Assembly (NCBI GenBank): GCA_016937715.1
Contig: JAFGWA010000092.1
Location: forward strand, 1 to 38,769
Reading direction: 5' to 3'
Length of the DNA stretch: 38,769 nt
Source of the DNA: Candidatus Goldiibacteriota bacterium
GTDB lineage: Bacteria > Oederibacteriota > PGYV01
Part shown: positions 5,411-35,546 of the stretch, in pieces
Layout of the letters: the number at the start of each line of letters is the position of its first letter
Numbering within the stretch: the first letter of the stretch is position 1
The notes under the pieces: model-generated
What the model was told of the DNA's origin: nothing
The model's input: only the letters and a program-made list of their open reading frames with translations
Databases searched by the model: none
Translations under genes and position numbers: made by a program

Positions 5411-5462
5411 AATACCTTTTATTTATTTTACTATAAACGTTAAAAAATCAGGGCGGTTTTAA

Positions 5463-6092: not shown

Positions 6093-6149
6093 TTTCCTTG
6101 ATATGCGCCTTTTTCGGTGATATAAATAGTATCAGGAAATGAAAAATAT

Positions 6150-6608: not shown

Positions 6609-6807
6609 GGCGCAAAAAAAGCCCTGAATTAATAGTTTAAACCTCATAAAATTAAATCATAAAAGTATCCTTAAATAAGCCGTACAGGCAGTTTTTCCGC
6701 CTATTATCGTGTTTGACAGTAAATGGGGGATAAATTATAATATATTAGCCATAAAAAATGTTTCCTGCGGCAGGAGTGCGGCACGCTGTTTTAAGGAGTT
6801 GGTAAAA

Positions 6808-7719: not shown

Positions 7720-7720
7720 G

Positions 7721-8176: not shown

Positions 8177-8179
8177 CGG

Positions 8180-8228
8180 TGTTCAGGCGCGCCTTCCATG
8201 GTTTCTGCGATAAAAAGCCGCCTGAACA
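8180..8228. repeat. Inverted repeat between membrane protein and HD-GYP genes
   Basis: TGTTCAGGCG (8180-8189) and CGCCTGAACA (8219-8228) are perfect 10-bp arms around 29 bases. The left arm starts three bases after the stop at 8176. The T-rich run lies about 15 bases after the right arm, so this is a poor terminator. It could be a protein-binding site or an mRNA processing or stability element between the two genes. Confidence 0.6.
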
Positions 8229-8262
8229 GACAGCTTTATAATTCTTTTTCTGGAGGTTTGTT

Positions 8263-9768: not shown

Positions 9769-9795
9769 TAAATATATTAAAACGGAGCGGATTTC

Positions 9796-10800
9796 TTGAA
9801 AAAAATATTATTGTTTTGTGCCGGTGTAATTATTATATATGCTGTATATGGATGCACGGGAAGTTCCAATCCTGCGGCGGCTTCTTACAGGCCGCCTGTT
9901 GCCGCGCCTACCGCTGTGCCGGGAATGGCTGACTGGCAGGAACTTGATGTGCCAATGGATACAAAAGGGGTTTATGGCCACGCGCTTTTAAAACTTGGCG
10001 GGAGTATAGCTGTAATTGGCGGAAAGACAGAGAACTCCTATTTGAAAAACGTGCCATTAACCGCTGATTTTGAAACGTGGTCAACTGTTAATGCGAATAC
10101 AGGTTTTGGAGAAAGGGAAGATTTTGCCTATTGTACAGACAGGGATAAGACTTATGTAATAGGCGGTTATTACGGCGGCGATAAAGAGGAAAAATTTTTT
10201 AATGATACCTGGGTTTCGTACGGAGCGCTGACATTCACCGCGCTTGAGACGGGAAAAACGGCGCCGGTATCGCGCGGTTTAAGGGCGGTTGTTTTTAAGG
10301 ACAAACCCCGTTTAAGCGGCGGTTATGACGGCAAAAATTACAGCAATGATGTGTATTATTTTGATAAAGAAAAAGGCTGGATAAAGGAAAAAACAGACAG
10401 GGAATCATTTAAACCAAGGGCATCGCACGGGTTTATTGTTTTTGACAATAAATTGTGGGTTATAGGCGGAAAAGGGGAAAAAGAGAAATTTTCCGATGTA
10501 TGGAATTCAACCAATGGCGCTGACTGGGAGGCGGTAACAACAAGCGCCATGTTTGGGGAAAGGTCTGATTTTGCCTGTTTTGTTTTTGGCGGAAGGATGT
10601 GGGTAATGGGCGGGCAGCTTTCGGACGGTAAAGCGTCCGGTGATGTCTGGTGGTCGGTTAACGGCAGGGCCTGGATACAGGCGGCTAAGGACGCGTTTCC
10701 TGCAAGGCATTCAGCCGGTGTCATAACAGAAGGCGGTGCTGTTTATCTTTTTGGAGGGATAGCGGATAAAATAAAAAATGACGGATGGTGGTCAAAATGA
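9796..10800 (+). CDS. Kelch-repeat beta-propeller lipoprotein
   Basis: A 334-residue lipoprotein with a TTG start behind GGAG. The signal peptide (hydrophobic about 4-18) ends in the lipobox 'A-V-Y-G-C', then a Ser/Pro/Ala-rich linker. The body has four to six kelch-like blades, each with a 'V-I-G-G' or 'W-V-M-G-G' strand, a W-S/W-x-S motif and a 'R-x-x-H/D-F' strand: 'I-A-V-I-G-G-K', 'T-Y-V-I-G-G-Y', 'L-W-V-I-G-G-K', 'M-W-V-M-G-G-Q' and 'V-Y-L-F-G-G-I'. These propellers bind partners or sugars and are usually not catalytic. It overlaps the next lipoprotein gene. Anchoring in the cell envelope inside a signalling island could mean a sensor input, but this is inference. Confidence 0.85.
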   Translation: MKKILLFCAGVIIIYAVYGCTGSSNPAAASYRPPVAAPTAVPGMADWQELDVPMDTKGVYGHALLKLGGSIAVIGGKTENSYLKNVPLTADFETWSTVNANTGFGEREDFAYCTDRDKTYVIGGYYGGDKEEKFFNDTWVSYGALTFTALETGKTAPVSRGLRAVVFKDKPRLSGGYDGKNYSNDVYYFDKEKGWIKEKTDRESFKPRASHGFIVFDNKLWVIGGKGEKEKFSDVWNSTNGADWEAVTTSAMFGERSDFACFVFGGRMWVMGGQLSDGKASGDVWWSVNGRAWIQAAKDAFPARHSAGVITEGGAVYLFGGIADKIKNDGWWSK

Positions 10801-11237
10801 AGAAAATACCTGTGATATTATTGATAGTATTTACGGTTTCATGCGGGCAGATATTCATGATGGAAGCGGAAAAAGCCAGGGCAAAAGCCGGTGATTTTCT
10901 TTATACGCTGTATAAAATGCAGGATGTGGATGCTGCGTATGCCATGACAGACCCGAATTTTGAGAACAACAATGGAATAGGGGCGCTGGAAATAGCTTTT
11001 GACACAGCTAAATTAAAATACGGCCGTTTTGAAGGGTTTAAAGCGGACAGTTATCTGGTGGATTCTGATTCGCGCACAATTGAACTTTTTTACAGGGCGT
11101 TAAGCGAAAAGGGTATCCTTTATCACAGGCTTACAGTAAGGCTTGATGAAAAAGGCAAATATAGAATTACCGGCATGGAAACATCTCCTGTAGCTTTTGG
11201 GCCTTTCAGGACCGAAAGAAAATTTAAAAGCGAATAA
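10797..11237 (+). CDS. Small lipoprotein of unknown function
   Basis: A 146-residue protein whose ATG overlaps the stop of the kelch gene (ATGA). An upstream ATG at 10785 is in frame, but the later start gives a clean signal peptide with the lipobox 'F-T-V-S-C'. After the Cys comes a helical segment (about 25-55) and a beta-rich domain ending 'G-P-F-R-T'. This overall layout, a helix then a curved sheet, is seen in NTF2-like lipoproteins that sit over membrane partners, but I cannot assign a family. Co-translation with the kelch lipoprotein suggests they act together. Confidence 0.75.
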   Translation: MKKIPVILLIVFTVSCGQIFMMEAEKARAKAGDFLYTLYKMQDVDAAYAMTDPNFENNNGIGALEIAFDTAKLKYGRFEGFKADSYLVDSDSRTIELFYRALSEKGILYHRLTVRLDEKGKYRITGMETSPVAFGPFRTERKFKSE

Positions 11238-11252
11238 TAAAGGGGAGATTAA

Positions 11253-11660
11253 ATGGCTGTTGAATGGAAACCGGAAATGTCTGTGGGTATAGGCGAAGTG
11301 GATGTGCAGCACAGGAAGATTATCGGCAAATTAAAGGAACTGTCTGACGCGCTTGAAAAAAAAGAAGAACCTGAAACCGCGGCGGGCATACTTAAATTTC
11401 TTGCGGTTTATATTGAGGAACATTTCAGGACGGAAGAAATGTTCATGCTTAAGTATATATATCCGGATTTTAAGGAACACCAGGACAGGCATCTGGGTTT
11501 CTTAAAACGCATCACGCGGCTTTATGAGGAACTGAACGCGGGCGGCATAAAAGGCGATGATATCTATAATGAAAGTATCGCGGTGTATAACTGGTTTGTT
11601 CTTCATATAGAAAATACAGATAAAAAGATGGGCGCTTTTTTACGCGGCAAAATAAGATAA
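11253..11660 (+). CDS. Bacteriohemerythrin
   Basis: A 135-residue four-helix di-iron oxygen-binding protein. All ligands are present: His20 (D-V-Q-H), His57 and Glu61 (E-H-F-R-T-E-E), His76 and His80 (H-Q-D-R-H), His118 and Asp123 (H-I-E-N-T-D). The N-terminal 'W-x-P-x-M-S-V-G' strand is typical. Length is standard, and GGGGAG precedes the ATG. Bacteriohemerythrins store or deliver O2 or sense it in aerotaxis. Here it sits directly before two sensor kinases, so oxygen or redox input to them is possible but unproven. Confidence 0.95.
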   Translation: MAVEWKPEMSVGIGEVDVQHRKIIGKLKELSDALEKKEEPETAAGILKFLAVYIEEHFRTEEMFMLKYIYPDFKEHQDRHLGFLKRITRLYEELNAGGIKGDDIYNESIAVYNWFVLHIENTDKKMGAFLRGKIR

Positions 11661-11694
11661 ACTGTTTAGGCCATAAAAACTTCAGGGGGCGGAT

Positions 11695-13434
11695 TTGAAT
11701 ATATGGACGGCGGTGCATTTTTCGGCTTTTTTGATTTATTCTGTGCTTGTTGTCTATGTGATTCTTAAAAACCCAAACGCTGTCATAAACTGGATGCTGG
11801 CCGCTGTTTTTCTGTGTATGTGGTTTTGGAGCGGCACAAATACAATCCTTTATAATTCCTATATATCCCCGCTGACGGCTGATTTTGTGCTTAGGGTTCA
11901 GTCTTTGTCATGGGCTGTTTTTCCGGCTTTTTACGCGCTTTTTCTGTTTCATCTGATGAAGAAAACCGCGCTTCTGAAAAATCCGTTTCTGTATATCGCC
12001 CTTTTTTCTGTTACGGCATTTTTTCAGCTGGGTAATTTCTCCGGGCGGATGCTTGTCTGCTGTGACAGCACTTATTTTGGGCTGACGGGAATATGGAAAA
12101 ATTCTTTTTATGTTTATTTGTTTATTGCGTACAGCGCGGTTATTTTTACAGTGCTTATGTTATATCTTATAAGTTTCATAAGAAACCATAAGAAGGGTAA
12201 TTACAGAAAATCTGCTGAAATAATACTTGGAAGCACTGTTATGTTTTTTGTGGTGACGGTTATAGTAAGTTTTGTTTTAAAAGCGCTGCGCATTCACATA
12301 CCGCTTCAGGTGAATATTACCCTTCTTGTATTTGTAGCGGGAATTGTTTACGCTGCGGAAAAATACAGTTTCTTTGAAATAAACGCGGAAACCGCCGCGG
12401 ACAAGATTGTGGAATCAATTGATGAAGGTTTAATACTGACGGATATGGACGGGGTTGTAGTGGAAGCAAATAAACACGCGGTTGAAATGATGAAGCGGTT
12501 TGGTAATCCGCATGGGAAGAATATATTTGAACTTATGGGGGAGAATGCGCTGGTTAAAAGGGTGGCATCCGGAGAAAAAATTAAGGAAGAAGAGGCGGCA
12601 AGGGAAACACCGGAAGGGATAAAGTTTTATACAATATCCGCGGGCCCGGTTGAAAAAAGAGGCGAAAAGTTTGGTTATATCTGCGTCATAAAAGACATTA
12701 CGGCAAGAAAAAAAGCCGAGGAAGAACTTAAATCAACCATAGCGGAATTAAAAAGGTCTAATGCGGACCTGGAACAATTCGCAAACGTGGCGGCACATGA
12801 CCTTAAAGAGCCTGCCAGAATGGTGGCAAGCCATGTGCAGCTGCTTAAAAAGAAAACTTATGAAAAGCTGGATGGCGCTCAAAAGGAGCATATGAATTTT
12901 GCCGTGGAAGGCGCGTTTCGTATGAACAGCCTGATAAATGACCTTTTGGATTATGCCGCCATACAGGCCGGTTCCGTTAAAATTTCAATGCTGAATCTTG
13001 ATTTGATTGCAGCCGGCGCTGTCACCGCTCTTAAACAGAAGGCGGATGAAGCAGGCGCTAAAATAACTGTATCAGAAAGCCTTTTAAAAGTGCGGGGTGA
13101 TGAAAAACAGGCAATAAGGCTGTTTGTTAATGTAATAGATAATGCGGTAAAATTCCGGCTTCCGGGGGTAAATCCGGAGATTCAAATTTCGGCCCGGGAG
13201 GACGCGGGTTATGTACGCGTTAAAATAAAGGATAACGGGATTGGTATTAATGAAGAGTATCTGGATAAAATTTTTAATTTATTTCAAAGGCTTAATCCGC
13301 GTGAACAATATGAAGGCAACGGCGTCGGCCTTGCCGTATGCAGGCGGATAATGGAAAGGCACGGCGGCAGAATTTGGGCGGAATCCGCAGGAGAAGGCAG
13401 AGGCAGTACGTTTGTGATTGAATTTAAGAAATAG
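11695..13434 (+). CDS. Seven-TM sensor histidine kinase (copy 1), Cph1-type HisKA
   Basis: A 579-residue membrane kinase with a TTG start behind AGGGGGCGG. Seven hydrophobic segments (about 5-25, 30-55, 65-88, 95-113, 138-163, 178-198, 203-223) match the HisKA-7TM input module. A PAS domain (about 232-340) follows, then HisKA with His368 in 'A-A-H-D-L-K-E-P' and HATPase with N-box Asn483, G1 'D-N-G-I-G-I' (513-518) and G2 'G-N-G-V-G-L' (541-546). The TM4-TM5 loop, predicted outside, has Cys122-Cys123 in 'V-C-C-D-S'. The HisKA class is that of Cph1, partnered by Rcp1-type receivers such as those at 4967 and 6150. The next gene is a collinear paralog. Confidence 0.9.
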   Translation: MNIWTAVHFSAFLIYSVLVVYVILKNPNAVINWMLAAVFLCMWFWSGTNTILYNSYISPLTADFVLRVQSLSWAVFPAFYALFLFHLMKKTALLKNPFLYIALFSVTAFFQLGNFSGRMLVCCDSTYFGLTGIWKNSFYVYLFIAYSAVIFTVLMLYLISFIRNHKKGNYRKSAEIILGSTVMFFVVTVIVSFVLKALRIHIPLQVNITLLVFVAGIVYAAEKYSFFEINAETAADKIVESIDEGLILTDMDGVVVEANKHAVEMMKRFGNPHGKNIFELMGENALVKRVASGEKIKEEEAARETPEGIKFYTISAGPVEKRGEKFGYICVIKDITARKKAEEELKSTIAELKRSNADLEQFANVAAHDLKEPARMVASHVQLLKKKTYEKLDGAQKEHMNFAVEGAFRMNSLINDLLDYAAIQAGSVKISMLNLDLIAAGAVTALKQKADEAGAKITVSESLLKVRGDEKQAIRLFVNVIDNAVKFRLPGVNPEIQISAREDAGYVRVKIKDNGIGINEEYLDKIFNLFQRLNPREQYEGNGVGLAVCRRIMERHGGRIWAESAGEGRGSTFVIEFKK

Positions 13435-13530
13435 TTTCAGCCGGTGTTAAAACAATTATTTAAGCCGGAACAAAGGCGTAAGCGGATGTTGAATGTTATC
13501 AGTAAAATGTAATTTCCGGAATGATTTTAA

Positions 13531-13539
13531 TGGTATAAT
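13531..13539 (+). promoter_or_regulatory. Extended -10 element before the second kinase gene
   Basis: TGGTATAAT is a perfect extended -10 (TGnTATAAT), 42 bases before the GTG at 13581. The same element occurs before the lipoprotein gene at 26611. It suggests the second kinase has its own promoter rather than depending on the first. Confidence 0.5.
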
Positions 13540-13580
13540 TTATTAAATGTCCTATAAAATGAATAAGGGGAGGCGAAGAA

Positions 13581-15320
13581 GTGAACGTTTGGACAGTACT
13601 TCATTTTTCCGCCTTTGTAATCTACTTCGTTCTGATGATATACATAATCGCAAAGAATCCCGCTGCTGTAATTAACTGGCTGCTTGGAATGGTTTTCATC
13701 TGTCTGTGGTTCTGGAGCGGTTCTAACGCCCTTCTTTTTAATTCGTACATAACACAGGAGAAAGCGGATATTATATTGAAAATTCAGACAATAGGATGGG
13801 CGTCTTTTCCCACTTTTTATGTTATTTTTCTTTTATATTTTATGAAAAAAGAGAGCATATTGAAAAATGTATTTGTTCTGACTTTCTTTTTTGCGATGCC
13901 GTTTATATTTGAGGCGGCGGCTTTTTCTGACAAAATGCTGGTATGTTGTGACAGGACTTCTTTTGGTTTAACCGGCATCTGGGGCAATTCCGCCTTTGTG
14001 TATCTTTTTATAGCTTATTGTTTTGTTATGTTCGCGGTTTCGCTGGGGATGCTTGTTCTTTTCAGGCACAGGCAGAAGAATGTTAATATGAAAAAGTCCG
14101 CGGATATAATACTGGCAACAACCATAATGGCTTTTTCAATAACTTTAATTGTAAGTTTCATACTTAAATGGTTCAGGATACATGTGCCTTTGGAAGCAAA
14201 TCTGGTATTTTTAATTTTTGTAACGGGTATTATATACGCGGCCGGTAAATATGACTTTTTTGAAATAAACGCGGAACAGGCTGCGGACAGGATACTGGAA
14301 TCGGTGGATGAAGGGCTTATTCTGACAGATATACAGGGTGTTGTGATGCAGGCAAATTCGACGGCAAAACAGATGCTTGATATTGAATTTAAAGCTGAAA
14401 AGGATAACATTTCGGAGATTATTCAGGATGAAAAAATAACAGCTATGATACTGTCAGGTGAGAAATTTACGGGCATAGAGTTGTCCCGGGGATCAGGTAA
14501 ATCCGAAAAAATGCTTACTTTATCCTGCACGCACGTTGAAAAAAACGGTGAAAAACTTGGTAATTTGTGCGTTATAGATGATGTCACCGAAAAAAAGGCC
14601 GCTGAAAGAGGGCTTGAAAAAACAATGAAAGACCTTGAAAGGTCAAATGTGGACCTGGAGCGGTTTGCGTATGTGGTGTCGCATGATTTAAAAGAGCCTT
14701 TAAGAATGGTTTCAAACTACATGCAGCTGCTAAAGAAGAAATCATACGACAGGCTTGAAAGCGAAGACAGGGAATACATTGATTTTGCGGTTGACGGCGC
14801 TTTAAGGATGAACGAGCTTATAAAAGACCTGCTGGATTATTCAAGGGTCAATACAAGGGGCGGTAAATTTGAGCCCGTTGACCTTAATGACGCGGCTGAA
14901 CACATAATTAATATAATGAAATTTAAAATAGAGGATGCTAAAGCACGGATATTAATACCGCAAAGGCTGCCTTCTGTCACGGGCGACGGAATGCAGATAG
15001 AACAGGTATTGCAGAATTTAATTGAAAACGGCCTTAAGTTCAGAAGTAAGTCGGGCATACCTGTGATTGAAATAACGGCACAGGAAAACGCGTCTTCTGT
15101 TATTTTAACGGTAAAAGACAACGGCATAGGCATAGAACAAAGGTTTCAGGACAGGATATTTGAAATATTTCAGAGGCTGCACTCCCGGGAGGAATATGAA
15201 GGTACGGGGATAGGCCTTGCCATCTGCAAACGTATTATGGAACGCCATGGCGGAAAAATCCGGGTGGAATCCGAAGGGGATAATAAAGGGAGCGTATTTG
15301 TTATTGAATTCAAAAGATAA
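13581..15320 (+). CDS. Seven-TM sensor histidine kinase (copy 2), Cph1-type HisKA
   Basis: A 579-residue paralog of the kinase at 11695, of exactly the same length and with landmarks at the same residues: Cys122-Cys123 in 'V-C-C-D-R', 'G-L-T-G-I-W' at 129-134, and His368 in 'V-S-H-D-L-K-E-P-L-R-M-V'. Input is seven TM segments plus a PAS domain (about 232-340); the kinase core has 'D-N-G-I-G-I' and 'G-T-G-I-G-L'. Here the HisKA is the full Cph1 consensus, whereas copy 1 has 'A-A-H' and 'E-P-A'. The GTG start has GGGGAGG upstream. A 146-base gap with a promoter-like element separates the two, so expression may differ. Confidence 0.9.
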   Translation: MNVWTVLHFSAFVIYFVLMIYIIAKNPAAVINWLLGMVFICLWFWSGSNALLFNSYITQEKADIILKIQTIGWASFPTFYVIFLLYFMKKESILKNVFVLTFFFAMPFIFEAAAFSDKMLVCCDRTSFGLTGIWGNSAFVYLFIAYCFVMFAVSLGMLVLFRHRQKNVNMKKSADIILATTIMAFSITLIVSFILKWFRIHVPLEANLVFLIFVTGIIYAAGKYDFFEINAEQAADRILESVDEGLILTDIQGVVMQANSTAKQMLDIEFKAEKDNISEIIQDEKITAMILSGEKFTGIELSRGSGKSEKMLTLSCTHVEKNGEKLGNLCVIDDVTEKKAAERGLEKTMKDLERSNVDLERFAYVVSHDLKEPLRMVSNYMQLLKKKSYDRLESEDREYIDFAVDGALRMNELIKDLLDYSRVNTRGGKFEPVDLNDAAEHIINIMKFKIEDAKARILIPQRLPSVTGDGMQIEQVLQNLIENGLKFRSKSGIPVIEITAQENASSVILTVKDNGIGIEQRFQDRIFEIFQRLHSREEYEGTGIGLAICKRIMERHGGKIRVESEGDNKGSVFVIEFKR

Positions 15321-20600: not shown

Positions 20601-21404
20601 ATGAGTAATAATACTACAAAGACGGATTATATCACACAGCGTGAAAAAGAAGTAATAGGAAGGCTGTCTTATGAAAAGGCAGATATTGTTACCCGTTTTC
20701 AATTTGACGCGTATTTTTCAAAGTATCCTAAAAACGTAAGATCAAAGCTTATTTACAGGCTTAAGAAAAAGGGAATTCTTAAAAAAATCAAAAATGGATT
20801 ATATGTTTATTCGCCGATAGAAGCCGGTCCAGGAGGAAGAAATATAAGTGAATATAGGATTCCGGCGCTTCTGTTTCCGGACGGAGAATATTATATGGGT
20901 TATTCTCCTATGTATAATTATTATAAATTTACAGATCAGATATACCAGGTTGTTTATCTGTTAAATACAAAACTTCAGCGCAAAATAAATGCCGGCGGTT
21001 TAAGGTTTAATCTGTTGAAAATACAAAAAAGCAGGATGTACGGTTTGATGGAAGCGGATTTTACAGGCACAAAAGTGAAAATAAGCGACCGTGAAAGAAC
21101 GCTTGTTGATTTGTTGTATTATTCCGCTCCGGTAGGAGGGTTAAAAAAAGCGTATAAGATAATGACAGATGAAGTTAAAAACGGCAGGATAAATCTTAAG
21201 AAGTTTATTTCTTATTTGGAAATTTTTCCTTCGGCTTATGTCAGAAAACGCGCGGGATATATTCTTGAAAATTCAGGGGTAAAAACAGGTAAATTGGTTA
21301 AAACAATAAATTCTTCTTCTTTAATGGGCCTTTATGAAGGCCGCGGCAGAAAGGGTAAAATAGATAAAAAATGGGGGGTTATTATTAATGATTCACAGGA
21401 ATAA
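20601..21404 (+). CDS. abiEi: AbiEi-type antitoxin of a type IV toxin-antitoxin system
   Basis: A 267-residue protein. Residues about 10-75 form a winged helix-turn-helix ('K-A-D-I-V-T-R-F', 'L-I-Y-R-L-K-K-K-G-I-L-K-K-I' and a Gly-Leu-Tyr wing), followed by the larger C-terminal domain with 'R-I-P-A-L-L-F-P-D' and 'R-T-L-V-D-L-L-Y' typical of AbiEi. In type IV systems the antitoxin opposes the toxin without binding it and represses the operon through the winged helix. Its end overlaps the toxin start by 17 bases, so they are translated together. The promoter at 20531 and inverted repeat at 20565 complete the layout. Confidence 0.85.
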   Translation: MSNNTTKTDYITQREKEVIGRLSYEKADIVTRFQFDAYFSKYPKNVRSKLIYRLKKKGILKKIKNGLYVYSPIEAGPGGRNISEYRIPALLFPDGEYYMGYSPMYNYYKFTDQIYQVVYLLNTKLQRKINAGGLRFNLLKIQKSRMYGLMEADFTGTKVKISDRERTLVDLLYYSAPVGGLKKAYKIMTDEVKNGRINLKKFISYLEIFPSAYVRKRAGYILENSGVKTGKLVKTINSSSLMGLYEGRGRKGKIDKKWGVIINDSQE

Positions 21405-22248
21405 AAGGCAATTTTCAGAAGTACTGGAAAGAACATCAGGACGGACCGGATTTCCGTTAAGGCTGCTTGAAAAAGATTATTATTTAACAATATTGCTGGG
21501 CGGCATGAATGAAAAACTTGATGAGAATCTTATTTTTAAAGGGGGCACGTGTCTTAATAAAATTTATTTTGAATATTTCAGGCTTAGTGAGGATCTGGAT
21601 TTCACCCTTGTTCTGCCTGAACAAAAAAGTACAAAAGGCAAAAGAAGCGCGGCTATGAAAAAGATTAAAAACAGCATAAAGGAATATACGGAAAATCTGG
21701 GTTTAAGATTAGATGAATCCGGGCCTGCGGGCAGGAATGAGAGCAGGCAGTATGTTTATTATATGGAATATGATTCTGTAATTACAGGAGCGGTTGATCA
21801 CGTTAAATTTGAAGTTGGTTTAAGGGCAAATCCATGTCTTCCGGCGCATTTAAAAGAGGTTAAGCACGTATTTAAAAATCCTTTCACGGAGGAAGATTTG
21901 TTTAAGGCGGGTAATGTAAAATGCATGCAGCTGCCGGAAATCGCGGCGGAAAAATTAAGAGCTGCAGTGACAAGAAAAACCATAGCTCCAAGAGATTTTT
22001 TTGATCTTCATTATCTGATAATGAATAAATTTGATTTCAAATCTTTGGAGTTTAAAGAACTTGCGGCAAAAAAGTTTGAAGAAGATGGATTTACCCGGGA
22101 ATTAAAAATGTATTATAATAACTTAAGGCCGCCTGAAGAAATTGAAAGTATGGTATTAAGGTTTGAAGATGAACTGTATCCGGTGTTAACACAGGAAGCA
22201 AAAGAGCGATTTGATTTAAAAAGAGTTATAAAATATTTTAAGGATTAA
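21388..22248 (+). CDS. abiEii: AbiEii-type nucleotidyltransferase toxin
   Basis: A 286-residue DNA polymerase-beta-like nucleotidyltransferase of the AbiEii family. Key motifs are 'L-E-K-D-Y-Y-L' (27-33), the KGGT box 'K-G-G-T-C-L-N-K' (51-58), the acidic 'S-E-D-L-D-F' (67-72) that supplies the metal-binding Asp residues, and 'A-P-R-D-F-F-D-L-H-Y-L' near 193-203. All are intact. Known relatives stop growth by transferring nucleotides to RNA targets such as tRNA acceptor ends, and protect against phages by abortive infection. The start lies inside the end of abiEi, with GGGGGG about 10 bases upstream. Confidence 0.9.
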   Translation: MIHRNKRQFSEVLERTSGRTGFPLRLLEKDYYLTILLGGMNEKLDENLIFKGGTCLNKIYFEYFRLSEDLDFTLVLPEQKSTKGKRSAAMKKIKNSIKEYTENLGLRLDESGPAGRNESRQYVYYMEYDSVITGAVDHVKFEVGLRANPCLPAHLKEVKHVFKNPFTEEDLFKAGNVKCMQLPEIAAEKLRAAVTRKTIAPRDFFDLHYLIMNKFDFKSLEFKELAAKKFEEDGFTRELKMYYNNLRPPEEIESMVLRFEDELYPVLTQEAKERFDLKRVIKYFKD

Positions 22249-24874: not shown

Positions 24875-26551
24875 ATGAGATATCTTCTGGAAACGGCAAT
24901 TAGAATAAAAGGAGCCCTGCTTCAGGCGCGTCTTGATAAAGCGGCAGATAATCCGGCAGGTGCCCAGCAAAAGCTGCTTCTGTCTATTCTTAAGAAAAAT
25001 GCCGCGTGTGAATATGGCAAGGCGCATAATTTTTCTGCCATAAGGGATGAATCGGGATATAGAAATAATGTTCCCGTGGTCAGATATGGAGATGTTGAAC
25101 CGTATATCAGAAGAATGCTTAAAGGTCAAAAGGATGTTCTGGTGTGCGGACATATTGTGATGTTCAGCATGACGTCCGGAACCAGTGCTTCGCCCAAATA
25201 TGTGCCGATGACTGATGAATCTTATAAAAAGACAATGGACCTGACTTTTCACTGGCTTTATGGCGCTATAAAAGCGCATCCGAAGCTTCTTGCCGGTAAA
25301 AATATCGGAATGGCAAATAAAGGTATTGAAGAAATATCAGAAGGCAATATTGTCTGCGGCTGTTTCTCGGGAATGGTGCGTTCAGGGGCTGCTTCCCGTT
25401 TTGGCGGAATTCATGCGGTGCCGGAAGAAGTTTCCATGCTGGGTGATTATAAAACCCGGTATTATATGACTGCAAGGTTTTCTTTTGAACAAAACGTTTC
25501 TTTTATAGTAACCCCGTGCCCGCTGACAATAATTAATATGGTAAAAACAGGTATGGAGTACTCCGGGGTTATAATAGAGAGCATAAGAAAAGGCGTGCTT
25601 TTTCCTGAAGGGTTTTTTGCGGGTGAAAAATCAGACCCTGCTGTCATTAAGAAACTTTCAAAGTATATAAAACCAAATCCCAAAAAGGCGGATGAACTTG
25701 AAAGTATACTGAAGAGAGAAGGAAAACTGATGCCGTATCATGTCTGGCCGGGGATGCGGCTGATAGGATGCTGGCTGGCCGGAAATGTGGGATATAAGTC
25801 TGATGAACTTGATTATTATTTTGGTAAAGGTATTGCCAAAAGGGATCTGGGTTACATAGCCAGCGAGGCGGCATGTTCCATACCGTATAAAGATAATTAT
25901 CCCGGGGCTGTTTTAGCTGTGGAAAGTAATTACTATGAGTTTATTCCGGAAGAACAGGCTGATTCCGGAGCTTATACGGTTTTAAACTGCGGGCAGCTTG
26001 AAATAAATAAGAATTACAAGATACTGCTTACAAACGGCAGCGGGCTGTACAGGTATGATATAGGCGATATAATAAGGGTTACGGGTTTTTATAAAAAGGC
26101 GCCCGTGATTACTTTTCAGCGAAAGTGCAATGACATAATTGATATAAGCGGTGAAAAAAACCATGTAAATCATTTCATTGAAACTTTTGCAGAAATAAAA
26201 AAAACAGCGGGTATTGAAGTCAGGCAGTTTCGGGCTGTGGGTAATGCCGCAAAAAGCAGGTATGATATTTATATTGACGCGGATAATAAAGAAGAAATAA
26301 GGCGGATGCTGCCGCAGTTGATTGAAAACACGCTTAAAGCGGTGAATCCCGAATATCTGGATGAAAGGGATTCGGGCAGGCTGGATCCGCCGGTATTTTA
26401 TTTTATGAAACCGGGATGGGAAGCGGAAATTATGAGAGGGCATATTAATAACGGACGGAGGGACACCCAATATAAATGGAAGTCAATGGCGTACGAGCCG
26501 GACGTAAAGGACAGCGGTTTTGTAGAGATGACAGTCGCACAATCATCATAA
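24875..26551 (+). CDS. GH3-family acyl-adenylating enzyme
   Basis: A 558-residue member of the GH3 branch of the ANL adenylation superfamily. Recognisable pieces are 'F-S-M-T-S-G-T-S-A-S-P-K' (about 98-109), the ATP-binding P-loop equivalent, 'C-G-Q-L-E-I-N' (about 371), and 'L-T-N-G-S-G-L-Y-R-Y-D-I-G-D' (about 386-399), which is the GH3 motif with catalytic Asp. The C-terminal part has 'C-N-D-I-I-D-I-S-G-E-K'. Plant GH3 enzymes join acyl acids such as jasmonate to amino acids through an acyl-AMP; the substrates of bacterial versions are largely unknown. It is translated almost in overlap with the LysE-type exporter. GGGAG precedes the ATG. Confidence 0.85.
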   Translation: MRYLLETAIRIKGALLQARLDKAADNPAGAQQKLLLSILKKNAACEYGKAHNFSAIRDESGYRNNVPVVRYGDVEPYIRRMLKGQKDVLVCGHIVMFSMTSGTSASPKYVPMTDESYKKTMDLTFHWLYGAIKAHPKLLAGKNIGMANKGIEEISEGNIVCGCFSGMVRSGAASRFGGIHAVPEEVSMLGDYKTRYYMTARFSFEQNVSFIVTPCPLTIINMVKTGMEYSGVIIESIRKGVLFPEGFFAGEKSDPAVIKKLSKYIKPNPKKADELESILKREGKLMPYHVWPGMRLIGCWLAGNVGYKSDELDYYFGKGIAKRDLGYIASEAACSIPYKDNYPGAVLAVESNYYEFIPEEQADSGAYTVLNCGQLEINKNYKILLTNGSGLYRYDIGDIIRVTGFYKKAPVITFQRKCNDIIDISGEKNHVNHFIETFAEIKKTAGIEVRQFRAVGNAAKSRYDIYIDADNKEEIRRMLPQLIENTLKAVNPEYLDERDSGRLDPPVFYFMKPGWEAEIMRGHINNGRRDTQYKWKSMAYEPDVKDSGFVEMTVAQSS

Positions 26552-28890: not shown

Positions 28891-29004
28891 TATGCGTTCT
28901 CCCGATTTTTTTTTACAGTATAACAGAATCAGAAATATAAGAAAAGCGGCATGCGGATTTTTCCTTACGGCATGTCGCATGTACAACTGTTCATCGGGTT
29001 ATGT

Positions 29005-29010
29005 TATAAT
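29005..29010 (+). promoter_or_regulatory. Candidate -10 box before the YitT-family gene
   Basis: TATAAT at 29005-29010 lies 26 bases before the ATG at 29036. At 17-base spacing the -35 region (28982-28987) reads TACAAC, a weak match. Confidence 0.35.
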
Positions 29011-29035
29011 TAAAATAATAAATAAGGGAGAGATT

Positions 29036-29884
29036 ATGAAAAATAAAATTAAAGACGCGGCATACAATATATTCCTGATAACCGCCGGAAGCCTGATTAC
29101 GGCTTTTGCCATAAAGGCTTTTCTGGTGCCGCAGGAATTTATTTCAAGGGGCGCCACAGGCATATCCCTTATGATATCTTATAAAACCGATATTCTGCCT
29201 TTGGGCGTGATTTATCTGCTTATAAATATTCCTATATTTGCCCTTGGATGGAAGTTTGTGGGCAGAAGGTTTACCGTTTACTCCCTTATCGGCATGGGCA
29301 TATATACGGTCATACTGGGTTTAATGCCTTTTCAGTTTCACATGCAGGATAAGATGCTTTGCGCGGTTATTGCCGGAGGCCTGTCAGGGATAGGGCTTGC
29401 TATTGCCCTTCGTTCATACGGTTCTGCCGGCGGGGCGGATGTGCTTTACATTATAATAAATAAACTTACCGGCATGACAATAGGGACATCCTCGATGATA
29501 ATAAACACTTTAATAATAGGCGTTATGGCGGCGTTTTTTCCTGTGGAAAATGTATTATATACTTTGGTGTATATTTTTATAAATATGTATGTGACAAACA
29601 AGACTTTTCATGGTTTTGCCCACAGGCGCGCTGTCCTTATAATGTCGGAAAAATCCGACCAGATAGCGGAACATATGAAAAAGGAGCATCTTGCGTTTAC
29701 GGTAATTGACAGCAAGGGCGGTTATAAAGGCACTATGCAGAAAATTCTGTACTCTGTAGTGGAAAGAAAGAAGATAGCGTATCTGAAACGGTCAATTTTG
29801 AAAACAGATCCTAAAGCTTTTATAGCGGTTATGACGGCTGAAGATGTCACAGGGGTGGAAATAGGCAATCAGCCGCATTGGTGA
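29036..29884 (+). CDS. YitT-family membrane protein (DUF161 with DUF2179)
   Basis: A 282-residue protein. The N-terminal region has five to six membrane segments (about 10-200) with the family features 'F-L-V-P-Q-E-F-I-S-R-G-A-T-G' and 'R-S-Y-G-S-A-G-G-A-D-V-L'. The C-terminal soluble domain (about 205-282) is the DUF2179 type, including 'G-G-Y-K-G-T-M-Q-K-I-L-Y-S-V-V' and 'T-A-E-D-V-T-G'. Homologs are common in Gram-positive and Gram-negative bacteria, with no clear activity. The frame is open from 28892, but AAGGGAGAG before ATG 29036 fixes the start. It is divergent from the M20 gene and probably carries its own promoter. Confidence 0.85.
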   Translation: MKNKIKDAAYNIFLITAGSLITAFAIKAFLVPQEFISRGATGISLMISYKTDILPLGVIYLLINIPIFALGWKFVGRRFTVYSLIGMGIYTVILGLMPFQFHMQDKMLCAVIAGGLSGIGLAIALRSYGSAGGADVLYIIINKLTGMTIGTSSMIINTLIIGVMAAFFPVENVLYTLVYIFINMYVTNKTFHGFAHRRAVLIMSEKSDQIAEHMKKEHLAFTVIDSKGGYKGTMQKILYSVVERKKIAYLKRSILKTDPKAFIAVMTAEDVTGVEIGNQPHW

Positions 29885-29926: not shown

Positions 29927-30355
29927 TTGAAGCAGCTTATTGATTTTCAGAATGAATGGGAAATTATCGCGGAAAAGGGAATGGCTGATTATGGCTCTTT
30001 AACGGCAGACGAGCGTGTATGGTTTAACTGCCATACTTTAATGGAGCAGGCGGACAGCGGCATTATAAGTTTCTATTATAATGAAAGTGCCGGCCATGTT
30101 GACGATACAATACACGACCTTGAAAAAATAGGGTTTACAGAACCGATTGCGCTGTTAAAAAAGATAAACGCGCTGTTTCCTGACGGTATTGTCCCGGATT
30201 TGGAAAAACGCAATGAAATAATCAACAGCTGGGACAGCGAAGAATATAACTTAATGTTTGAAGAAATTGATGACAAGTTTTACGGCTTCAAGAAACAATT
30301 TACCAAAAAGATACTTGATTTTATAATGGATAAAGGTTTGGCATACAGAAAGTAA
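29927..30355 (+). CDS. DMP19-like (DUF4375) protein
   Basis: A 142-residue soluble helical protein with a TTG start behind AAAGGAG. It fits the DMP19/DUF4375 pattern: 'L-T-A-D-E-R-V-W-F-N', a central 'D-S-G-I-I-S-F-Y-Y-N-E-S-A-G' with the family's Gly/Phe/Tyr spacing, then 'A-L-L-K-K-I-N-A-L-F-P-D' and 'D-D-K-F-Y' near the end. DMP19 of Neisseria is a DNA mimic that binds a transcription factor; most DUF4375 proteins are uncharacterised, and this one is not shown to mimic DNA. It is strongly acidic in places but not overall. The upstream gene ends 42 bases away. Confidence 0.6.
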   Translation: MKQLIDFQNEWEIIAEKGMADYGSLTADERVWFNCHTLMEQADSGIISFYYNESAGHVDDTIHDLEKIGFTEPIALLKKINALFPDGIVPDLEKRNEIINSWDSEEYNLMFEEIDDKFYGFKKQFTKKILDFIMDKGLAYRK

Positions 30356-30391: not shown

Positions 30392-31072
30392 ATGAAAAAG
30401 ATAATGGTGGTAATATCTGTTGTTATGTTTTTCGGCGCGGTTATGGCGGCAGAGAGCAGCCCAAAGGATTATTGCCCGCTTGAACCCGGGTTAAAATGGA
30501 CATACGGTTTATATAATAAGAAAGATAAAATACAGCGGCCGGATGTTCAGGCGCTTATTGATAAGGCGGAAAAATACGGAAAACAGGAATACGCGCTTTA
30601 TGAAGTTCCATCCCGCGGAATAAAGTGTTTTGTCCGCGCCGATGATGAAGGCATCTGGGTAAAGGCCGCGCAGATGAATCTTCCCGTGTTAAGTTTTATA
30701 TATGTCACGCTTGAACTTGAAAAAGAAGCAAATATCCTTGTTTTTCCTGTTCAGCAGGGTCAAAAGTGGAATTATGAAGGCAATGTAAGAGTAAAAGCGC
30801 TTGCCATAATAAGCATAAAAGCAAAAGTTATGGTGGAGATGGAGAATAAAGGGATTGAAGAGGTCTTAGCCGGCGGTAATACTGTTTCCGCGTATCACAT
30901 AAGCGCGCGGGTAAACAGAAACCTTGTGGATAATAACCCGATGACAGGAAGCTGTTGGATGGCGCGGGGCCTGGGGCTGGTAAAAGCGGAAACAAAGAAT
31001 TCTATGCTGGCTTTACATGAAATTTCCGCGGGAAACATACAGGAAAAAACGGACAATAAAAACATAAGGTGA
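30392..31072 (+). CDS. Secreted protein of unknown family
   Basis: A 226-residue protein. GGGGAG precedes ATG 30392; an earlier in-frame ATG at 30374 lacks a site. A signal peptide (hydrophobic 4-18) is followed by 'V-M-A-A-E', so cleavage near 20 is likely and no lipobox Cys is present. The mature part opens 'D-Y-C-P-L-E-P-G-L-K-W-T-Y', the pattern of a family of secreted beta-rich proteins ('Y-P-L-x-x-G-x-x-W-x-Y') of unknown role. Just four bases separate its stop from the ankyrin start, so the genes should be co-translated. Confidence 0.75.
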   Translation: MKKIMVVISVVMFFGAVMAAESSPKDYCPLEPGLKWTYGLYNKKDKIQRPDVQALIDKAEKYGKQEYALYEVPSRGIKCFVRADDEGIWVKAAQMNLPVLSFIYVTLELEKEANILVFPVQQGQKWNYEGNVRVKALAIISIKAKVMVEMENKGIEEVLAGGNTVSAYHISARVNRNLVDNNPMTGSCWMARGLGLVKAETKNSMLALHEISAGNIQEKTDNKNIR

Positions 31073-31076
31073 TGAT

Positions 31077-32378
31077 TTGACTGAAGATGAAAGGTTATTA
31101 AATGCCGCGGAAAACGGCGATTTGGACGCGGTAAAAGACGCGGTAAAAAACGGGGCGGAATTTTTTAACGTGGCCATGTTAAAAGCCTCAAAAGCGGGCA
31201 GCCTGGACGTAATAAAGTATTTACTCCGTAAAGGCGCCAATAATATTCCGGACGCTTTAAAAATGGCCGCGTCATCCGGGCATGAAGAGGCGGTTAAATA
31301 CCTGCTGAATAAAACTGAATCGGGGTTTAACACGGCGGTTATGGAAGCGCTGGAGAGCGGCCACGACAATACCGCCGCCATGATGTTAAAAAGCGGGACA
31401 GGGAGCTTTCAGGAACTTCTAAGTTTTGCGTATGACAACAGCGACATGGCCTTATATAATAATGTAAAGCAGAAGGCGGGCAAAAAATTTATGCCGGCGT
31501 TAAGAATGGTTTTAACCGAAAGGTTCAGCGGCTTAAGCCGCAGCTTTACGGATGAGAAACTTGAAGCGTTTTTGAACAATGATGATGAAGTAAAATTGAC
31601 GGCTGTTTTGGACGCGGGGTTTGATGCGGATTATTTATTACTGTTTAATCACAATATTAAAGCGCCGCTGATTCTGTGTGCTTTGGCCGCGGGAAAGTTA
31701 AAAGCAGGCGCGGTAATTTTAAAACATAAAGCTGACCCCGGGGTAAAAGGAATTATTTATTTGAATGAAGAAGAAAAAGAGATATCTGTTTTTGACCTGC
31801 AGAATGATGAAAATGAAAGCCTGTTTGGCGCGGTTCTGCTTCAGGGATACGGCGGGTTAATAAAAACAGAACCGCTGAAAGTGTTCAAAGCGGCTATGCG
31901 CGGGAATAATGAGCCGGTGCTGGAAAAAATACTGCGCAATAAGGCTCTTTTAAAAACGGCAGGCGGCGGTTTTATAATATCCGCCCTGCTTTCTGAAAAA
32001 AGGGCGCTTGCCGTACGGTTAATTCAAAGCGGCGCTAAATTTACTGAAGCTAAGTTTTATACAAAAGAGCAGTTTGGAGCAATAGCAATGCTTGCTGATA
32101 AAAATGACACTGTAATGCTATATAATCTTAGTTCTGCCGGCCTTACAAAGAGGCGGGCAAAGTATGATGTAAAGAAAAGCTGGGAGATTCCGCTTGTAAA
32201 AGCTGCTTTTGACCGGAATTACAGGCTATTATCCCTGCTGGTGAAGAATTTCTTTGACCCAAATGAAAAAATAAGCGGCGATACAACTCCGCTGTCTTAC
32301 TGTACGGCAAATGGCGCCGACCCAAAGGCCCTGCGCATATTAAAACGCCGCGAAGAAAAAGACGGCGAAAATAAATAA
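31077..32378 (+). CDS. Ankyrin-repeat protein
   Basis: A 433-residue cytoplasmic protein with a TTG start. The N-terminal third (about 1-130) contains four to five ankyrin repeats, for example 'L-L-N-A-A-E-N-G-D-L-D-A-V', 'M-L-K-A-S-K-A-G-S-L-D-V-I-K-Y-L-L-R-K-G-A' and 'A-L-K-M-A-A-S-S-G-H-E-E-A-V-K-Y-L-L'. The remainder has looser helical repeats ending in another ankyrin-like block near 385-425 ('T-T-P-L-S-Y-C-T-A-N-G'). No signal peptide or membrane segment is present. Ankyrin repeats mediate protein binding. It lies between the secreted protein (4 bases) and the KaiC/PPDK fusion (13 bases), so it may be their adaptor. Confidence 0.85.
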   Translation: MTEDERLLNAAENGDLDAVKDAVKNGAEFFNVAMLKASKAGSLDVIKYLLRKGANNIPDALKMAASSGHEEAVKYLLNKTESGFNTAVMEALESGHDNTAAMMLKSGTGSFQELLSFAYDNSDMALYNNVKQKAGKKFMPALRMVLTERFSGLSRSFTDEKLEAFLNNDDEVKLTAVLDAGFDADYLLLFNHNIKAPLILCALAAGKLKAGAVILKHKADPGVKGIIYLNEEEKEISVFDLQNDENESLFGAVLLQGYGGLIKTEPLKVFKAAMRGNNEPVLEKILRNKALLKTAGGGFIISALLSEKRALAVRLIQSGAKFTEAKFYTKEQFGAIAMLADKNDTVMLYNLSSAGLTKRRAKYDVKKSWEIPLVKAAFDRNYRLLSLLVKNFFDPNEKISGDTTPLSYCTANGADPKALRILKRREEKDGENK

Positions 32379-32391
32379 AGCTCCGGAGGTA

Positions 32392-34950
32392 ATGATGCGG
32401 GACAGCACTGGAATACCGGGACTTGATAAGATATTAAACGGCATAATTCCGGGAGATAATATAGTATGGCAGACTGATGTTCTGGAACATTTTTTACCTT
32501 ATGTGAAGCCGTACTGCGAATACGCGAAAAACAACGGCAGGCCCCTTATATACTTCAGGTTTGCGGGGCATACGCCGTTTGTTTCTGAGGCGGACGGGGC
32601 GCAGGTGTGTGTTTTGCATCCGGAAGATGGTTTTGAAAAATTTATAACCCAAATGCACGATGTAATAACCAAAACGGGCGACGGCGCTTATTATGTCTTT
32701 GATTCGCTTTCCGAACTTGCGGTGGAAAGTTTCAGCGAGAGTATGATAGAAAACTTTTTTGTATTGACGTGCCCAAGGCTGTTAAAGATGAAGTGTATAG
32801 CGTATTTTGTTGTGACCAGCAATTTAAATTCATATCATGCCACAAGGCCGATTACAAAAACCACGCAGTTAATACTTGATATTTACAGCAGAAACGGGCG
32901 TGAATTTATTCAGCCTGTTAAAGTGGACGGCAGGTATTCTTCCGAAATGTTCATGCTGCACGAACGCGTGGGTGATGATTTTATGCCTGTCATGAACAGT
33001 TCCGATATAGCGGAAATATCCGCTTCTGACCCCTGGTACGGCCTGCAGTCCGCGCCTTACAGGGCGGTAGGCCTTTGGGACAGGCTTTTTATTGAATCTG
33101 AAGATGTAATTGAATCGTGCCGCCGCGGGGAATGTTCTTTGGATACTGTAAGGGAGATATTTTTAAGGCAGTTAAAGCAGATTTTTTCAAATGACGCGCG
33201 CATGCTGGAAATGGCGGAAAAGTTCATTGACCTGCCGGAATTAATACATATCTGGAAGCGCACCATAGGCACGGGAATGATAGGCGGAAAATCCGCCGGT
33301 ATGCTTTTAGCCCACGCCATTTTAAAAAAACATTTTCCTAAATACACCCAAATAATTGAAAAACACGACTCTTTTTATATAGGGTCGGACATATTTTACT
33401 CTTTTCTTGTAAGAAACGGCTGCTGGCACATAAGGCAGAATCAGAAAAACCCCGCCACCATTTATGACAGGCTTGAAGAGGCGCGGGCGCTTATTATAAA
33501 CGGGGAATTTCTGGAAACTGAAAAGCAGAAATTTTCCGATATGCTGGATTACTTCGGGCAGGCGCCTATTATTGTGCGTTCCAGTTCGCTGCTTGAAGAT
33601 AATTTTGGAAACGCGTTTTCCGGAAAATATGAAAGCATTTTCTGCGTAAACAACGGGACAAAAGAAAAGAGGCTTGAAGAATTTTTAAAAGCTGTCCGTT
33701 TAATTTACGCAAGTACAATGTCAAAAGAGGCGCTGGCTTACAGGGCCAGGCGTAATGTCCTTGATATGGACGAACAGATGGCGCTTTTGGTGCAGAGGGT
33801 TTCCGGGACAAGGTATGAAAAAATATTTATGCCGCAGCTTGCGGGCGTAGGGTTTTCGTACAACTCTTATAAATGGGACGAAAGTATTGACCCGGCGGCA
33901 GGACTTATACGTCTTGTGTATGGGCTTGGAACCAGGGCTGTGGACAGGCACGATGATGACTATACCCGTATAGTGGCGGTAAACGCGCCGGAAAAAAGGC
34001 CTGAAGGAAATCAGGCTGAAACCGCGAAGTTTACGCAGAAAAGGGTGGATGTGCTTGATATTCAGAATAATGTTTTAAAAACGGATTATTTTACGGATAT
34101 TTTAAAGGAAAACGCGGGGCTGGACCCGGAAATGTTTTCGCTTGAAAGGGAATACAATGGCGCCGGATACAGGATAATAAATTTTGACACTGTCCTGTCC
34201 GGAACAGAATTTATAAAAGATATGGGGGATATACTTTCTATATTAAGGGATAATTATGGCAGTCAGGTGGATATAGAATTTACGGCTAATTTTACCAAAG
34301 ACAAAAAATACAGAATAAACCTGCTTCAGTGCAGGCCTCAGCATGTAAGAAAAGAAAGCGGCGTTAAAAGCGTTCTCCCCACCGTGTCCGAAGATAAAAT
34401 AATATTAAAATCCAAAGGCGGTCTTGTAGGGCAGGGCAGGACAATGGCTGTTGACAGAATAATATATGTGGTGCCCGGGGTTTATGGGTTACTGCCGGAA
34501 CAGGACAGGTATTCAGTGGCAAGGCTTGTGGGCAGGGCGGCACACTTTGAGGAAGAAACCGGGAAAAATATAATGCTTTTAGGGCCGGGAAGGTGGGGCA
34601 CGCGGATGGTACAGCTTGGCGTGCCTGTGGTTTTTTCTGAAATTAATACCGCGTCTGTCATATGTGAAATCGGCAAGATGCACGAAGGGCTTATTCCGGA
34701 TCTTTCCATGGGGACGCATTTTTTTAATGACCTTGTGGAAATGAACATTCTTTATATCGGTTTTTTTGCGTCAGCCCATGGCAATGTATTAAATGAAAAG
34801 TTTATAGAGTCCCTTCTGGACAGTTTTCCGCGGATGTTTCCCGGTGAAAAAAATTATGGCGGCGCGGTAAGGGTGATAGAAGGTAAAGATTTAAAAATAT
34901 ATCTTCAGGCAGACCCGGTAAAACAGGAGTGCGTGGTTTTCGCGGGGTAA
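32392..34950 (+). CDS. Fusion of a degenerate KaiC-like domain with a PEP/pyruvate-binding (PPDK-N-like) domain
   Basis: An 852-residue protein behind CCGGAGG. Residues about 5-160 resemble KaiC/RadA-type RecA folds: 'S-T-G-I-P-G-L-D-K-I-L' at the start and 'Y-Y-V-F-D-S-L-S-E-L' as Walker B. The Walker A loop is missing, so this domain probably cannot hydrolyse ATP. Residues about 290-660 match the ATP-grasp half of PEP synthase/PPDK: 'G-G-K-S-A-G-M-L-L', 'I-V-R-S-S-S-L-L-E-D-N-F-G-N-A-F' and 'N-L-L-Q-C-R-P-Q-H'. The phospho-His swivel and PEP barrel domains are absent; instead there is a separate C-terminal domain (about 680-840) with 'L-G-P-G-R-W-G-T' and 'G-T-H-F-F-N-D'. Its reaction is unknown. 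Confidence 0.8.
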   Translation: MMRDSTGIPGLDKILNGIIPGDNIVWQTDVLEHFLPYVKPYCEYAKNNGRPLIYFRFAGHTPFVSEADGAQVCVLHPEDGFEKFITQMHDVITKTGDGAYYVFDSLSELAVESFSESMIENFFVLTCPRLLKMKCIAYFVVTSNLNSYHATRPITKTTQLILDIYSRNGREFIQPVKVDGRYSSEMFMLHERVGDDFMPVMNSSDIAEISASDPWYGLQSAPYRAVGLWDRLFIESEDVIESCRRGECSLDTVREIFLRQLKQIFSNDARMLEMAEKFIDLPELIHIWKRTIGTGMIGGKSAGMLLAHAILKKHFPKYTQIIEKHDSFYIGSDIFYSFLVRNGCWHIRQNQKNPATIYDRLEEARALIINGEFLETEKQKFSDMLDYFGQAPIIVRSSSLLEDNFGNAFSGKYESIFCVNNGTKEKRLEEFLKAVRLIYASTMSKEALAYRARRNVLDMDEQMALLVQRVSGTRYEKIFMPQLAGVGFSYNSYKWDESIDPAAGLIRLVYGLGTRAVDRHDDDYTRIVAVNAPEKRPEGNQAETAKFTQKRVDVLDIQNNVLKTDYFTDILKENAGLDPEMFSLEREYNGAGYRIINFDTVLSGTEFIKDMGDILSILRDNYGSQVDIEFTANFTKDKKYRINLLQCRPQHVRKESGVKSVLPTVSEDKIILKSKGGLVGQGRTMAVDRIIYVVPGVYGLLPEQDRYSVARLVGRAAHFEEETGKNIMLLGPGRWGTRMVQLGVPVVFSEINTASVICEIGKMHEGLIPDLSMGTHFFNDLVEMNILYIGFFASAHGNVLNEKFIESLLDSFPRMFPGEKNYGGAVRVIEGKDLKIYLQADPVKQECVVFAG

Positions 34951-34970
34951 AATTATTTAAAGGGGGCTTT

Positions 34971-35546
34971 ATGTTAAAAGAATTTATTCTGGCGTTTATT
35001 CCCGTATTTGTAGCGGTGGATGTTATCGGGCTGCTGCCCATATTTATATCTTTAACCCGCAGGCTTAACAAGAAGCAAATAAAAAAGACGCTTATTCTTT
35101 CTTTTATAACAGGTGTTTCTTTGGCCCTTATTTTTATTTTTGTAGGCAAGTGGTTATTTGCCATGCTTGGAATTACCGTTAATGACTTTATGGTGGCGGG
35201 AGGGGTTATACTTTTCCTGATAGCGCTTCGGGATATTTTTGACATAGGAAAGCACGCGGGGGAAGTGGCGGAAATGGGCGCTGTGCCTATTGGCACCCCG
35301 CTTATAGTGGGGCCGGGGGTTTTAACCACATGCCTTATACTGACCGCGCAATACGGAATTATTCCCACTATTACGTCTGTAGTGCTTAATGTGCTTATAG
35401 CTGTTTTGGTGCTAAGTTTTTCCGGGGCGATAATAAAGTTAATAGGCAATACCGGGGTTTTGGCAGTGTCCCGTATCATGGCGCTTCTGCTGGCGGCTAT
35501 TGCTGTAATGATGATTAGAAAAGGGTTAATGGGGATGTTGTTATAA
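34971..35546 (+). CDS. MarC-family integral membrane protein
   Basis: A 191-residue protein with six membrane segments. The family pattern is clear: 'F-V-A-V-D-V-I-G-L-L-P-I-F' near the start, 'G-I-T-V-N-D-F-M-V-A-G-G-V-I-L-F-L-I-A' around 70, 'V-P-I-G-T-P-L-I-V-G-P-G-V' around 103, and the 'G-x-x-A-V-S-R-I-M' end. MarC (UPF0056) members were once linked to multiple antibiotic resistance, but no transport substrate has been established. An upstream in-frame ATG at 34929 lacks a site, and AAAGGGGG precedes 34971. Only 20 bases separate it from the fusion gene upstream, so it probably ends that operon. Confidence 0.85.
   Translation: MLKEFILAFIPVFVAVDVIGLLPIFISLTRRLNKKQIKKTLILSFITGVSLALIFIFVGKWLFAMLGITVNDFMVAGGVILFLIALRDIFDIGKHAGEVAEMGAVPIGTPLIVGPGVLTTCLILTAQYGIIPTITSVVLNVLIAVLVLSFSGAIIKLIGNTGVLAVSRIMALLLAAIAVMMIRKGLMGMLL

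Follow-up and report, generated by a model that had tools for sequence, protein, structure and literature searches.

A KaiC-like and PPDK_N fusion protein in a Goldiibacteriota contig, its protein family, and the linkage of that family to genes of glutamate synthesis

The window analyzed here is a whole stretch of 38,769 nucleotides, contig JAFGWA010000092.1 of a Candidatus Goldiibacteriota bacterium (assembly GCA_016937715.1). Four co-directional ORFs in its ORF listing encode, in sequence order, a secreted protein, an ankyrin-repeat protein, an 852-aa fusion protein, and a MarC protein (Table 1). The ORF coordinates and the bases between the ORFs confirmed the gaps of 4, 13, and 20 bases that a first-pass annotation of this DNA had given with its own choice of starts. 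A ribosome-binding-like GGAGG lies upstream of the fusion gene, and the choice of that gene as the one of main interest, made in the same annotation, has been borne out. Pfam detected ankyrin repeats (E 8.5e-21) and MarC (E 7.9e-35), and the DUF3108-like match of the secreted protein (E 5e-4) fell below the cut-off. The boundary of the four-gene set is arbitrary, as the same-strand run also includes the DMP19 and YitT genes, the order of which is kept in the two other genomes of the window's genus. Across these genomes, the genes of the run are ~68-93% identical and are therefore real genes rather than chance ORFs. Promoter-like and terminator-like sites (20 and 13, versus 16.7 and 7.8 in shuffles) were set aside as evidence for an operon.

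Table 1. Genes of the run and domains of the fusion protein, with positions in the window.
Feature	Position	Strand	Evidence or remark
YitT gene	28892-29884	same strand	Precedes DMP19
DMP19 gene	29927-30355	same strand	18-36 bases upstream of the secreted-protein gene
Secreted DUF3108-like protein gene	30392..31072 (alternative start 30374)	+	ORF; Pfam below cut-off
Ankyrin-repeat protein gene	31077..32378	+	ORF; Pfam
852-aa fusion gene (P-loop-less KaiC/RecA-like domain, PPDK_N, undescribed C-terminal domain)	32392..34950	+	
KaiC/RecA-like N-terminal domain, residues 1-236	32392..33099	+	GDNIVW at the Walker A place; D104 at the Walker B position
PPDK_N ATP-binding domain, residues 296-664	33277..34383	+	Pfam E 1.9e-46; active-site residues conserved
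C-terminal domain, about residues 665-852	34384..34947	+	GPGRWG and SxGTHFF motifs; invariant H776
MarC/NAAT-family membrane protein gene	34971..35546 (alternative start 34929)	+	ORF; Pfam

With the homologous protein of genome G037 as the query (E <= 1e-20), we found relatives in 69 of 384 genomes across bacteria, comprising 87 genes. When full-length KaiC types and other types were split by the coverage and length of the match, 19 of those genomes had full-length KaiC-PPDK_N proteins, and the others had PPDK_N and the C-terminal domain under different N-termini. In a second survey, of 44 genomes in the phylum of genome G271 (E <= 1e-150), the KaiC type turned up in 13, and 12 of these were new; the KaiC-type set (n = 31) consists of the first 19 genomes and these 12 further genomes. 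Ten non-KaiC relatives were scanned with Pfam, which gave receiver-like matches in four sequences (L013, L062 twice, and L066) and a C-terminal nucleotidyltransferase domain in two (L061 and L063); among 21 non-KaiC sequences, 6 contain the nucleotidyltransferase motif GSxKNxTAGxxSDxD. The family core carries interchangeable N-termini, which are KaiC-like, receiver-like, or helical. The window's fusion has the defining set of the family, PPDK_N and then a C-terminal domain with GRW, E759, and SxG[TS]HFF, and these shared features place it in the KaiC-type branch of a bacterial family that is widespread, has no name, and has PPDK_N plus a new C-terminal domain as its core. Spread by phages or plasmids was considered and set aside: no relative came up when viral contigs were scanned with the family alignment, and a plasmid collection gave distant matches only, on large Bacteroidales and other replicons.

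At the N-terminus of the fusion, Pfam gave a KaiC match only as a fragment (residues 5-25, E 0.073; E 0.002 with the N-terminus scanned alone), and a profile search of the PDB gave chance matches only. The relation to KaiC is drawn from profile-profile and fold comparison. In hhalign, the N-terminus matched four KaiC domains with E 4.5e-6 and a probability of 86.6 over 113 columns, and the control, the fusion's own C-terminal domain against KaiC, reached a probability of 0.4. The AlphaFold2 model of the N-terminus, with two sequences as input, was of low confidence (pLDDT 50, pTM 0.53); with this model, all of the 50 Foldseek matches listed were KaiC, the best having E 2.7e-4, and VIA-align placed it on KaiC with Z 8.8 and an rmsd of 3.9 over 136 residues. 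The RecA and RAD51 rows of VIA-align stood at ~Z 7, and no more than about 2 Z units separate the KaiC, RecA, and RAD51 rows. A RecA-like fold of the N-terminus is thus well supported as a prediction, though from a weak model. The first 250 residues of the KaiC-type proteins were scanned for Walker A, which was found in 0/31; GD[NS].V[WF] replaces it in 30 of the 31, the remaining one being cut by a contig end, and D104, the Walker B aspartate, is invariant in 19/19.

The PPDK_N domain follows in 19/19 full-length relatives (Pfam), and its residues K300, R396, E402, D403, E629, Q646, and R648 are identical in 40/40 sequences with all N-terminal types. The lysine, arginines, glutamate, and glutamine among them correspond to catalytic residues of PPDK, and the ATP site of the fusion is intact. 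Neither the phospho-His domain (PF00391) nor the PEP domain (PF02896) was found in the 19 full-length relatives (Pfam, E <= 0.01), and the T[SC]H[AT] motif occurs in 0/31 KaiC-type proteins. As for rifampicin phosphotransferase (RPH), this identity was rejected on the lack of PF00391 and on an NCBIfam score of 22.7 versus a cut-off of 999.

The C-terminal region has no Pfam match, a profile search of the PDB gave 0 matches, and its structure model (two sequences as input, pLDDT 34) was too poor for a fold search. Nine of its residues (G733, R734, G743, E759, S772, G774, H776, F777, and F778) are identical in 40/40 family sequences, and G[TS]HFF is present in 31/31 KaiC-type proteins. A diverged phospho-His domain was tried as a candidate and rejected, hhalign against PF00391 sequences giving a probability of 0.5. 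With its motifs (GPGRWG...SxGTHFF), the region is a new, undescribed domain. The first-pass annotation had described a RecA/KaiC-like domain lacking the Walker A loop, joined to PPDK_N and an additional C-terminal domain, with no phospho-His or PEP domain; each element of this architecture, the RecA-likeness of the predicted fold included, stands after the searches above.

The same residues bear on how the protein may work. It could be an inactivated-KaiC-type signalling or scaffold protein that senses the energy or nitrogen state and acts by protein binding alone, with PPDK_N serving as an ATP sensor only. Such a role is in keeping with the loss of Walker A in 31/31 KaiC-type proteins and with the available text of a census of archaeal two-component systems, in which inactivated KaiC domains are a recognised kind and "iKaiC" domains are described in archaeal signalling proteins (PMC5847659). 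However, the conservation of the expected catalytic residues in 40/40 sequences, together with the invariant histidine, suggests chemistry over sensing alone, and we consider this binding-only role quite improbable.

The first-pass annotation had also taken the secreted protein, the ankyrin protein, the fusion, and MarC as one system, with the ankyrin protein as an adaptor. The short gaps speak for a single unit, as does the presence of the ankyrin, secreted, and MarC genes around the fusion in 3/3 genomes of the window's genus, in the same order in the other two, where the fusion is 87% and 84% identical. The fusion is present in 5 of 45 genomes of the window's phylum, and its identity falls to 66% in G012 (same taxonomic order) and 40% in G037 (same phylum); around the fusion in these two genomes, the ankyrin, secreted, and MarC genes were not found. 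Moreover, tblastn of the ankyrin, secreted, MarC, and DMP19 proteins over 30 loci gave matches only in the two genus loci and in 0/28 others, and the fusion family is much wider and has different partners. The four-gene unit is largely refuted as a general system, and it is highly unlikely that the four proteins act together as a single unit. The adaptor proposal is likewise unsupported, the ankyrin gene adjoining the fusion within the genus only. A survey of the gene neighbors of the fusion homologs, suggested by the same annotation, had a divided outcome: what that annotation had named as a refutation, homologs that share no neighbors, was observed for the ankyrin, secreted, and MarC genes (0/28 loci outside the genus), but glutamate dehydrogenase (GDH) and glutamate synthase (GOGAT) genes are shared instead. 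The secreted DUF3108-like protein probably lies outside the function of the fusion. A defence system was considered separately and rejected, the fusion having no PADLOC match and the neighboring ankyrin gene a weak, ankyrin-only match.

A GDH or GOGAT gene lies within 6 kb of the full-length KaiC-PPDK_N gene in 17 of the 31 genomes, often in an operon-like arrangement. Among the first 19 genomes, tblastn and PF00208 located GDH within 6 kb in seven (G037, G154, G219, G257, G313, G229, and G308; the G313 entry comes from tblastn, its GDH being truncated at the contig end), and GltB or GltBD adjoins the gene in three more (G157, G110, and G188). Among the further 12, GDH lies within 6 kb in five (G425, G424, G423, G387, and G411) and GltB-GltD directly upstream in two (G422 and G384), with gaps between linked pairs down to 21-25 bases. 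G399 has GltD alone, 4.2 kb away, and is outside the 17. No GDH or GOGAT neighbor was found in 13 of the 31 loci, two of them on short cut contigs; G412 and G413 belong here, as do G397 and G410, with short contigs. Neighbor clustering over 24 loci of the window's relatives, the window's own locus not included, gave GDH in 11 and GltB/GltD in four.

The linkage is a trait of much of the family, though not one that defines it: of the 87 genes of the whole family, 49 have a gene of the glutamate dehydrogenase family within 6 kb (PF00208, which also takes in leucine, phenylalanine, and valine dehydrogenases; the comparison with GDH itself covers the neighbor-clustering loci, the KaiC-type loci, and the Bacteroidales records). 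One of 117 PF00208 rows, on a G280 contig with no family gene, was excluded from the linkage list. Counted by genome, family genes are linked to PF00208 in 37 of 69 versus about 0.5 expected from random placement. The canonical PEP-utilising genes (PF02896) of these 69 genomes were the control, and 1 of 142 had PF00208 within 6 kb (Fisher 1e-24, uncorrected for kinship). PF00208 itself is present in 68/69 genomes with the family versus 211/315 without it, again uncorrected for kinship.

On a quick tree of the 31 KaiC-type proteins, at least seven changes are needed between linked and unlinked states and at least four between GDH and GOGAT; therefore, the linkage has been gained or lost repeatedly and is not one inherited block. 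The window's clade stands among the linked branches, in a starred group of seven that includes the GDH-linked L055 (50% identity). In the window's genus (three genomes) and its nearest relative G012, no GDH/GOGAT linkage was found within 6 kb; in the window's own genome, GDH is on contig C73 and GltB on contig C28, both apart from the fusion. The function of the window's copy therefore rests on homology, and we assume, from its sequence relationship, that the fusion of this genus keeps the glutamate role of the family despite the lost linkage.

We also observed the family beside GDH in other arrangements. In the clusters of L061, L062, and L063, GDH is accompanied by a bare PPDK_N + GTHFF protein of 575-600 aa and by a larger protein in which PPDK_N is combined with a C-terminal nucleotidyltransferase that has GSxKNxTAGxxSDxD intact; in L061, GDH (8722-10008) stands beside the family cluster (3663-8626). 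GlnE and GlnD are nucleotidyltransferases of nitrogen control. By analogy, the nucleotidyltransferase-bearing proteins of these three loci may be GlnE/GlnD-like regulators of GDH, a likeness in the kind of domain alone, and the window's fusion differs in having no such domain. In Parabacteroides distasonis (L066, 6184-15476, NZ_OY725790.1) and Phocaeicola massiliensis (L120), a receiver-type family gene is flanked by two gdh genes and is divergent from one; in P. distasonis, the interval from the family gene to the second gdh is occupied by genes with the annotations phosphatase family, nucleotidyltransferase, and RapZ. A search of 9 kb around the family gene of the Prevotella record found no GDH. 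Baggio and Morrison reportedly noted a downstream gene, which we consider here as a possible match to the PPDK_N + GTHFF family.

The repeated operon-like association with two unrelated enzymes of one product is the reason for naming glutamate synthesis as the process, and regulation is named for the way in which sensor-like N-termini are exchanged on an ATP-using core that stays fixed. The fusion probably serves nitrogen assimilation, as a regulator or as an enzyme, rather than a four-gene system. More specifically, we see about an even chance that the family responds to a cell signal by controlling or modifying glutamate synthesis in an ATP-dependent manner. Since the partner alternates between GDH and GOGAT, neither can be the sole direct target.

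Alternatively, the protein may be a metabolic enzyme that transfers phosphate from ATP to a small molecule of the pathway or of its carbon supply (pyruvate, 2-oxoglutarate, or glutamate), in which case the linkage would mark a common pathway and not regulation. The intact ATP site and the alternation of GDH and GOGAT are both compatible with a pathway enzyme, and PPDK_N domains are known best from pyruvate-acting enzymes. Class I aminotransferase-like genes near three KaiC-type genes (L011, L051, and L057, which include the window's nearest extra-genus relative) would fit as well, although they could be there by chance, aminotransferases being common. However, the PEP/pyruvate TIM barrel is absent, the exchangeable N-termini look regulatory (receiver-like, or KaiC-like with no P-loop), and ordinary PEP-utilising enzymes are also encoded (PF02896 in 69/69 genomes). 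We therefore regard a purely metabolic role as rather unlikely.

Under the regulatory reading, the PPDK_N site would pass phosphate from ATP to an acceptor, for which the C-terminal H776 is the leading candidate, and the phosphate would then move from H776 to a target in the glutamate pathway, either a protein or a small molecule. The KaiC-like N-terminus, presumably no normal P-loop ATPase, may be a sensing or oligomerising part, swapped in relatives for receiver-like or helical domains. Extending this, we tentatively put forward a hitherto unrecognised control system of glutamate synthesis in many bacterial lineages, in which a PPDK-type site would phosphorylate the C-terminal histidine and the phosphate or signal would be handed to GDH or GOGAT; the swappable N-termini (KaiC-like with no P-loop, receiver-like, and helical) would be the sensors, and the nucleotidyltransferase branch might do a GlnE/GlnD-like job for GDH.

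Pyruvate phosphate dikinase and PEP synthase share with it PPDK_N and the signature residues of this domain, but the fusion has neither the phospho-His swivelling domain nor the PEP/pyruvate TIM barrel and carries extra N- and C-terminal domains. With the KaiC/RadA-like ATPases, and especially inactivated KaiC (iKaiC), it shares the fold, as far as predicted, the initial TG..GLD..L.G, and the aspartate of Walker B, but it has GDNxVW in place of Walker A and a single such domain joined to PPDK_N. The Bacteroidales "PEP/pyruvate-binding domain-containing protein" (e.g., WP_041525632.1 of P. distasonis) is like the fusion in having PPDK_N and then a GPGRWG...GTHFF domain, near GDH, and unlike it in its receiver-like N-terminus, with a core identity of about 27-29%; no function for this protein was found in the literature searched. 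Desulfovibrio DVU0246 (PMC4001038) is PPDK-like, is encoded in a two-component gene cluster, and gives nitrate-resistant mutants. Like the family, it is a PPDK_N orphan, here among signalling genes, but its annotation includes a mobile phospho-His domain, its neighbors are different, and a GTHFF domain is not mentioned in the text consulted. REC-PPDK combinations are noted as Bacteroides-like in the available text of the archaeal census (PMC5847659). The literature searched, with most subscription papers outside its scope, held no description of a KaiC-PPDK_N protein or of its GDH linkage. The fusion is a real, uncharacterised protein, and the strong linkage of its family to glutamate synthesis was likewise not found in that literature. 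Being widespread, having an intact ATP site, and being strongly linked to both of the enzymes that form glutamate, the family is a concrete candidate that can be tested in common laboratory Bacteroidales.

Elsewhere in the window, 4946-15320 is a dense signalling stretch in which the translations show several receiver-domain proteins, one PAS-GGDEF-like and one PAS-HD-GYP-like protein, and a tandem pair of similar histidine kinase-like proteins of 579 aa each. Two adjacent genes at 20601-22248 resemble what we take to be an AbiEi-like regulator and an AbiEii-like nucleotidyltransferase, and the pair is possibly a toxin-antitoxin pair. GH3 is a family of adenylating enzymes best known from plant hormone conjugation, and a GH3-family protein is encoded in this bacterium at 24875-26551 (Pfam, E 6.8e-58).
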